Assembly (NCBI RefSeq): GCF_014252075.1
Contig: NZ_CP059209.1
Location: forward strand, 482,818 to 546,817
Reading direction: 5' to 3'
Source: Blattabacterium cuenoti
Lineage (GTDB): Bacteria; Bacteroidota; Bacteroidia; Flavobacteriales; Blattabacteriaceae
DNA length: 64,000 nucleotides
The notes beneath the pieces are model-generated. The model ran no database searches and had not been told where the DNA came from. It saw nothing but the letters and a program-made list of their open reading frames with translations. Of this stretch, positions 43,236 to 46,034 are shown in pieces. The translations under genes and the position numbers were made by a program. Every line of letters starts with the position of its first letter. The stretch's first letter is position 1.

Positions 43236-46034
43236 ATGGAATATAATTTTAGAGAAATAGAAAAACGTTGGCAAATATACTGGAAAAAAAATAATGTTTT
43301 TCATACTAAGGAAAACGGAAAAAAGAAATACTACATTCTAAATATGTTTCCTTATCCTTCTGGAGCAGGACTTCATGTCGGACATTGTTTAGGTTATATT
43401 GCATCAGATATTTATGCCAGATATAAACGTTCAAAAGGATATAACGTTTTAAACCCTATCGGATTTGATTCTTTTGGATTACCTGCAGAACAATATGCAA
43501 TTCAAACAGGGAAACACCCTTATGATACCACTCGTCAAAATTCACAAAAGTATAGAGATCAAATGAATAAAATAGGACTTTCTTTTGACTGGAATCGTGA
43601 ATTGTGCACTAGCAATCCAAATTATTATCGTTGGACTCAATGGATGTTTATTCAAATTTTTAATTCTTGGTACGACAAAAACTGTGAAAAAGCCAAACCT
43701 ATAGATCTTTTAATTGAAGAATTTAATAAAAACGGAAATGATTTTATCAATGCAAAGACTTCTTTTAATTATAGATTTAATTCAAAAACATGGAATGAAC
43801 TAAGTATTCATGAAAAAGAATCTATTCTTTTAGATTATCGTTTAGCTTATTTATGCAATAATATAGTAAACTGGTGTCCAGATTTAGGGACTGTTTTGGC
43901 TAATGATGAAATAAAAAATGGAAAAAGTCAAAGAGGAGGATATCCAGTCTATAAAAAAAAAATGTTACAATGGCACATAAGAATTAGCGCATATGCAGAA
44001 AGACTCATAAAAGGATTAAATTTGATTGATTGTTCTCAATCTCTAAAAAAATTACAATTTAACTGGATAGGAAAATCTATTGGAATTGATATTTCATTGA
44101 ATATAACACATCCCACTAATAACATCAACAAAATAAAATTATTTATTTCTCGTCCAGAAATGATATTTGGAATAACTTTTATTGTATTATCTCCAGATCA
44201 TCCACTTGCAGATCAAATAGGTGTTTTTTCCCATAAAAAAAGTGTTTTAACATATCTTATGCAAGAATTTTCTATTGATGAAAATAGAAAAAATGTTTCC
44301 GGTGTTTTTACAGGAAATTATGTTTTTCATCCTTTTATTCAAAAAAAAAAAATTCCTATTTATATTAGTACCTATTTTACAGTAGATAATCATACAAAAT
44401 CAATGATAGGAATTCCTGGGTATGAAGAAAGAAGTAAAAAATTTTCTCAAAAATTTGGATTAGATATTATTCCAATTTGTGAAAAAAAGAACATAAACAT
44501 AAATACGAATGAGTATATCTGTATTAATTCTGATTTTTTAAATGGATTAAATAGAAAAGAGGCAAGAGAAAAAATAATAGAAATATTAGTGGAAAAAAAA
44601 ATAGGAAAAATAAATACAAGTTACAAAATACGTGATGCTATTTTTTCTAGACAAAGATATTGGGGAGAGCCAATTCCTATTTATTTTAAAAATAGAATTC
44701 CAAAAACAATTCCTATAGATCAATTACCTATTCTTCTTCCTAAAATAGATAATTATCATCCTAAGGATGGAAAATCTTCATTAATTAGAGCAAAAAATTG
44801 GGCTTGGGATGAAATAAATATGAAAATTGTTTCAAAAAACCTTATTGATTATATAAATGTATTTCCTATAGAAACTAGCACAATGCCAAGTTGGGCAGGA
44901 TCTAGTTGGTATTTTCTTAGATATATGGATGTTAATAATCATCAATTTTTTCTTGATAAAAGAAAAGAAAATTATTGGAAGAATGTTGATTTATATATTG
45001 GAGGATCTGAACATAGTACTGGACATTTAATTTATGCAAGATTTTGGCACAAATTTTTGAAAGATAGAGGATGGATAACAACTGAAGAACCTTTTAAAAA
45101 GGTATTAAATCAAGGAATGATCCTCAGTTATTCTGCTTCTATACTAAAGATTATAGGAGAAAATATCTTTGTATCTTATGGATTAAGAAATCAAAAAAAT
45201 TATTCATTTCAAGAGGTATATGTAGATCTATCCTTAATAAAAAAGAACAACGAATTGAATATAGAAAAATTTCAAAAAACACGACCAGAATTTAATTCTT
45301 CTGTTTTTCTATTAGAAAAAGGAACTTTTCTTTGTAAGAGAAAATTGGAAAAAATGTCTAAATCCAAATATAATGTCATAAATCCTGATGATATATATGA
45401 AAAATATGGATCAGATGTATTTCGAATTTATGAAATGTTTTTAGGTCCTATTACTCAATCTAAACCTTGGGACGAAGAAAAAATAAATGGGATAAAAAAT
45501 TTTATAAACAAATTCTGGCGTCTCTTTCATAAAAATGAAAAATTTAAAGTCAGTGAAGTCAATCCAACATTTAAAGAACTACAAATTTTACATCATACTA
45601 TAAAGAAAATACAGGATAAAATGCAATCTTTTTCTTTGAATACATCTATTAGTTCATTTATGATTGTTGTGAATCAATTAACAATGTTAAAATGCAATAA
45701 AAGAAAAATATTAGAACCTTTAGTTCAATTGATAGCGCCATTTGCTCCTCATATAGCTGAGGAATTATGGTATAAATTAGGAAAAAACAAATCTATTATT
45801 CATTATCCAATTCCTTTTTTAAATTCAAAGTATCTAATAGTAGATCAAATCACATATCCAATTATGTTTAATGGTAAATTAAAATTTATAGAAAAATTTG
45901 ATTCTAATATTTCAATAAAAGAAATAAAAAATAAGATTTTAAATCACCCCAAAACAAAATCTTTTTTAAGAGAAAAAATTTTTAAAAAGTTAATTTTAGT
46001 CCCAAAAAAAATAATAAATATTTTATACTATTGA
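43236..46034 (+). CDS. leuS: Leucyl-tRNA synthetase with degenerate editing site
   Basis: Charges tRNA-Leu. The 932 residues have the HIGH motif HVGH at 47-50 in PYPSGAGLHVGH and KMSKS at 706-710, so aminoacylation should be intact. The CP1 editing domain (about 280-430) is diverged: the Thr-rich motif usually written TTRPDT reads ISRPEM at 304-309, and the AVPxxDERD motif reads GIPGYEERS at 392-400, with Ser400 in place of the near-universal Asp. Two long A-tracts are in frame, A10 (43953-43962) and A12 (44341-44352). The start is ATG at 43236. Confidence 0.96.
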   Translation: MEYNFREIEKRWQIYWKKNNVFHTKENGKKKYYILNMFPYPSGAGLHVGHCLGYIASDIYARYKRSKGYNVLNPIGFDSFGLPAEQYAIQTGKHPYDTTRQNSQKYRDQMNKIGLSFDWNRELCTSNPNYYRWTQWMFIQIFNSWYDKNCEKAKPIDLLIEEFNKNGNDFINAKTSFNYRFNSKTWNELSIHEKESILLDYRLAYLCNNIVNWCPDLGTVLANDEIKNGKSQRGGYPVYKKKMLQWHIRISAYAERLIKGLNLIDCSQSLKKLQFNWIGKSIGIDISLNITHPTNNINKIKLFISRPEMIFGITFIVLSPDHPLADQIGVFSHKKSVLTYLMQEFSIDENRKNVSGVFTGNYVFHPFIQKKKIPIYISTYFTVDNHTKSMIGIPGYEERSKKFSQKFGLDIIPICEKKNININTNEYICINSDFLNGLNRKEAREKIIEILVEKKIGKINTSYKIRDAIFSRQRYWGEPIPIYFKNRIPKTIPIDQLPILLPKIDNYHPKDGKSSLIRAKNWAWDEINMKIVSKNLIDYINVFPIETSTMPSWAGSSWYFLRYMDVNNHQFFLDKRKENYWKNVDLYIGGSEHSTGHLIYARFWHKFLKDRGWITTEEPFKKVLNQGMILSYSASILKIIGENIFVSYGLRNQKNYSFQEVYVDLSLIKKNNELNIEKFQKTRPEFNSSVFLLEKGTFLCKRKLEKMSKSKYNVINPDDIYEKYGSDVFRIYEMFLGPITQSKPWDEEKINGIKNFINKFWRLFHKNEKFKVSEVNPTFKELQILHHTIKKIQDKMQSFSLNTSISSFMIVVNQLTMLKCNKRKILEPLVQLIAPFAPHIAEELWYKLGKNKSIIHYPIPFLNSKYLIVDQITYPIMFNGKLKFIEKFDSNISIKEIKNKILNHPKTKSFLREKIFKKLILVPKKIINILYY

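Follow-up and report, generated by a model that had tools for sequence, protein, structure and literature searches.

A retained but degenerate CP1 editing domain in the leucyl-tRNA synthetase of Blattabacterium, very probably no longer able to proofread

The leuS gene of Blattabacterium cuenoti encodes a leucyl-tRNA synthetase (LeuRS) with altered motifs in its proofreading domain, which raises the question of whether this enzyme can still remove wrong amino acids from tRNA-Leu. The gene lies in the analyzed stretch of 64,000 nucleotides (the window), a part of the 636 kb, single-contig, reduced genome of this obligate cockroach endosymbiont. That host-restricted bacteria with reduced genomes can lose the editing sites of their synthetases is already published (Melnikov et al. 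2018, PNAS 115:E11505; cited in PMC7373986 and PMC11020763), and the sequence-only reading of this DNA was right to call such losses reported. The Blattabacterium LeuRS adds a case of a known type. The following features were located in the window:

43236..46034, plus strand: leuS, leucyl-tRNA synthetase of the bacterial type, 932 aa (open reading frame; TIGR00396, E 2.1e-233, above the curated cut-off)
43374..43385, plus strand: HVGH (HIGH-class) motif of the synthetic site, residues 47-50, intact (translation, alignment)
44061..44588, plus strand: CP1 editing domain, residues 276-451, kept as a domain (PF13603, E 6.7e-36, profile positions 2-184 of 185)
44145..44162, plus strand: degenerate threonine-rich motif ISRPEM, residues 304-309, corresponding to TTRPDT at 247-252 of E. 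coli (alignment)
44388..44402, plus strand: degenerate Y330-G331-T-G333-A334 loop, here NHTKS, residues 385-389 (alignment)
44409..44435, plus strand: degenerate GIPGYEERS, residues 392-400, with Ser400 in place of the editing-site Asp345 (alignment)
45351..45365, plus strand: KMSKS motif of the synthetic site, residues 706-710, intact (translation, alignment)

The open reading frame was matched over its full length by the LeuRS equivalog and carries both the HIGH-class and the KMSKS motifs, which the earlier reading had already called intact. Relative to the ancestral residues (E. coli numbering), the window LeuRS shows the replacements T247I, T248S, D251E, T252M, Y330N, G333K, D342E, and D345S; the counterparts of ISRPEM and GIPGYEERS in the free-living relatives are TTRPDT and AVPxxDxRD. 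The two degenerate motifs, on which the sequence-only reading was built, were found in the translation and in the HMMER alignment. Of the span 44142-44435 given there, the end was right, but the start corresponds to residue 303, one codon ahead of ISRPEM. The HMMER alignment to the Thermus LeuRS (1h3n) paired FISRPEMIFG with FTTRPDTLFG and GIPGYEERS with AVPAHDQRD without gaps. Hence, the substitutions fall on genuine editing-site positions, and no catalytic Asp or Thr sits displaced close by; the alignment revealed none elsewhere in the domain either. An editing-competent LeuRS is recognized by the conserved Asp (D345) and the threonine-rich TTRPDT including T252, and the window enzyme has neither. 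The CP1 structure predicted from five sequences (pLDDT 41, pTM 0.28) was unusable for pocket geometry.

The LeuRS sequences from 49 Blattabacterium genomes (species), 19 other members of the family, and 29 free-living Flavobacteriales were aligned with that of E. coli. D345 was absent from all 49 Blattabacterium enzymes (Ser in 43, Cys in six) and invariant in the 29 free-living ones, a pattern beyond chance; the Asp-to-Ser change proposed earlier from the single gene thus holds in the wider set. D251 was replaced by Glu in 49/49. The threonine cluster was lost as claimed, T248 being kept in one and T252 in five of the 49 (lost in 48 and 44, respectively). The loop residues Y330, G333, and A334 were retained in no Blattabacterium species and G331 in one, all four being invariant in the free-living relatives. 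The residues that never varied in the 29 free-living enzymes included T248, R249, D251, T252, Y330, G331, G333, D342, R344, and D345. A column was scored as lost when the invariant residue was kept in no more than 10% of Blattabacterium. In all, 168 columns were invariant across E. coli and the free-living enzymes; in CP1, 11 of 31 such columns were lost vs. three of 137 elsewhere (Fisher p = 4e-7).

A degenerate CP1 might also be explained by sequencing error, by decay of the gene to a pseudogene, or by a second, intact copy at another place in the genome. We regard this reading, for which no support was found, as practically impossible, as 49 separate genomes, all with open frames, show these losses. 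Profile searches of the window's genome found no second LeuRS or spare CP1, the sole other PF13603 match being the valyl-tRNA synthetase (ValRS).

The synthetic site presented a different picture from CP1. The residues HVGH (a HIGH-class motif in which one position is V or I), M40, Y43, D80, S496, Y527, E532, H533, H537, and KMSKS were conserved in 49/49, and among the residues examined only a few flanking positions showed conservative changes. No compensating, tighter synthetic site was found, nearly all of the checked residues being identical to those of the free-living relatives. Lys occupies residues 749 and 795 (E. coli G662 and D715; nt 45480-45482 and 45618-45620) in nearly all Blattabacterium; the free-living relatives are invariant at both.

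The evolution of CP1 was followed on a tree built without this domain, on which the residue changes in CP1 were counted. Blattabacterium came out as a single group with support. The simplest reading is hence that D345, D251, and Y330 were lost before the genus radiated. Across the whole tree, parsimony required four changes of D345, with the deep branches unsure because of the AT-rich composition. The divergence of CP1 relative to the rest of LeuRS (median of pairs) was 1.73 in Blattabacterium vs. 1.20 in the free-living relatives. Such acceleration, together with the largely eroded state of CP1 in related genomes of 180-200 kb, is what one would expect if the domain were unconstrained junk heading for deletion. 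Against this, CP1 is open-framed and essentially full length in 49/49 species, 16 of its 179 columns never change within the genus, and the pairwise dN/dS of the Blattabacterium domain (0.17-0.59 vs. about 0.19-0.34 elsewhere in LeuRS) stayed below 1 in all pairs tested. The chance that CP1 is mere junk is in our estimate very slim.

The changes were unevenly spread over the former pocket. Positions 248, 249, 252, 330, 331, and 344 underwent 12-22 changes on the tree (mean 10.2 in CP1 and 5.7 elsewhere), while position 251 was Glu with no change and position 345 alternated between Ser and Cys only, with five changes. That part of the pocket has therefore not simply drifted, which leaves a small chance that a remodelled CP1 still edits, Ser or Cys at 345 and Glu at 251 having taken over from the ancestral residues; a dN/dS below 1 would also fit such a site. 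The free drift of Y330, T248, T252, R249, and R344 (12-19 changes) is unlike a working pocket, and Ser or Cys at 345 may be a mere structural replacement beside the following helix. Moreover, in E. coli editing is crippled by D345A and abolished by Y330D. The faster-changing pocket within a retained, constrained domain fits a CP1 whose catalysis would have been lost and whose scaffold was kept.

Altogether, these data suggest that the Blattabacterium LeuRS is very probably unable to remove wrong amino acids although its proofreading domain is present, and the earlier claim of editing loss in a host-restricted bacterium is supported as far as sequence evidence reaches. The residue losses, their spread through the whole genus, the intact synthetic site, and the relaxed but non-neutral evolution of CP1 were observed here directly. 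The proposal that we put forward, with a probability of roughly 87% overall, is that LeuRS charges tRNA-Leu normally but CP1 would no longer hydrolyze mischarged tRNA-Leu. This capacity would have disappeared when selection was relaxed in a host-restricted lineage, ahead of the crown radiation of Blattabacterium. Purifying selection, though weakened, would have retained CP1 as a module for structure or tRNA handling. Fidelity for leucine would then rest on discrimination in the unchanged synthetic site, possibly with tRNA-independent pre-transfer editing there, and low-level norvaline would be expected at Leu codons.

The nature of the error may be predicted by analogy with E. coli. D345 is critical for deacylating Nva-tRNA-Leu, and the D345A-LeuRS strain incorporates norvaline at Leu positions at 1.65% in aerobic and up to 8.8% in microaerobic conditions; the residue misincorporated in its proteome was almost exclusively norvaline, with negligible Ile (PMC4932531). 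The same key Asp is lost in both enzymes, but D345A is a laboratory single mutant whereas the Blattabacterium enzyme carries a naturally fixed, multi-residue loss. The error expected in Blattabacterium is likewise mainly norvaline, with Ile negligible, which narrows the earlier suggestion of norvaline or Ile at Leu positions. Genes for LeuA and threonine ammonia-lyase are present in the window's genome and in principle open a route to norvaline. LeuA (L265:1441-2655, minus strand) is 404 aa long, and its profile match stops at position 382 of 494, short of the C-terminal part. The missing part is the site of the leucine feedback domain, and judging from this truncation the enzyme may be feedback-insensitive.

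A retained but defunct CP1 has a precedent in the human mitochondrial LeuRS, in which the domain is present, the editing site is degenerate, and post-transfer editing is defunct (PMC3834818). Both enzymes combine a CP1 domain with a degenerate site; the human one is organellar and of another lineage, so the losses were presumably independent. In M. mobile LeuRS, CP1 is wholly absent, unlike in Blattabacterium.

Other synthetases were found by family searches and compared in 19 Blattabacterium genomes; for IleRS, ValRS, AlaRS, and ThrRS the residues counted were those taken as the editing residues of these families. ThrRS had 400-431 aa, with the match starting at positions 146-171 of the 565-position profile, and the editing-domain residues were absent in 19/19. 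The ThrRS of the window's genome (contig 192036-193238; L175:1465-2724, minus strand) has 419 aa vs. 642 in E. coli, and its whole N-terminal editing region is gone. Immediately upstream of thrS is a glycerol-facilitator-like gene, which leaves no room there for a separate editing ORF, and a PF07973 search of the same genome for a free-standing threonyl editing domain matched only AlaRS. In the PheRS beta subunit, Glu334 was replaced by Gly in 18/19 and by Leu in 1/19, and Gly318 was also lost. In Thermus PheRS, Glu334 and Gly315 recognize tyrosine (PMC3275996). PheRS beta of the window's genome (contig 606704-608770; L239:1372-3447, plus strand), with Gly for Glu334, also lacks profile positions of about 45-155, the tRNA-binding region. 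The editing residues of IleRS (D342), ValRS (D286), and AlaRS (four residues) were kept in 19/19.

The loss cannot be put down to genome size alone. Smaller genomes of the same family, of about 340 kb (G049, G050) and 309 kb (G067), have a LeuRS with D345 and T252, in contrast to the larger Blattabacterium; G049 and G067 also encode full-length ThrRS with the editing residues, and LeuRS is intact in a 1.3 Mb relative (G053). It seems fairly probable that editing by LeuRS, ThrRS, and PheRS was lost together before the radiation while that of IleRS, ValRS, and AlaRS was kept. In that case amino acid chemistry and metabolism, and not genome size alone, would determine the errors that are tolerated.

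Editing variants of the same three synthetases in a reduced genome are known from Mycoplasma (Li et al. 2011, cited in PMC4014445 and PMC7373986). A 2020 review knew of no Mycoplasma genome with the three losses at once (PMC7373986), whereas all three are predicted within one Blattabacterium genome. The loss is of the same kind as those in Melnikov et al. (2018), and that survey may already include Blattabacterium; what was worked out here is the depth of 49 species, the loss of Leu/Thr/Phe editing with Ile/Val/Ala editing kept, and the intact relatives with smaller genomes. The combined loss, its depth, and these relatives are worth following. An ancient, genus-wide loss beside intact related lineages would serve as a natural experiment, showing what level of translation error is tolerable in the long term and which proofreading steps are indispensable. 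The proteomic prediction (norvaline at Leu, Ser at Thr, Tyr at Phe, and little Val at Ile) is testable on symbionts from the cockroach fat body.

Further deviations were noticed among the synthetases. In the Karelsulcia-like relative G055, no ThrRS match above the cut-off was obtained. AlaRS of G055 (L222) and of another such relative, G057 (L224), is cut to about 440-450 aa and lacks the editing domain. Finally, ValRS carries KISKS instead of KMSKS in 19/19 Blattabacterium (L142 in the window's genome).
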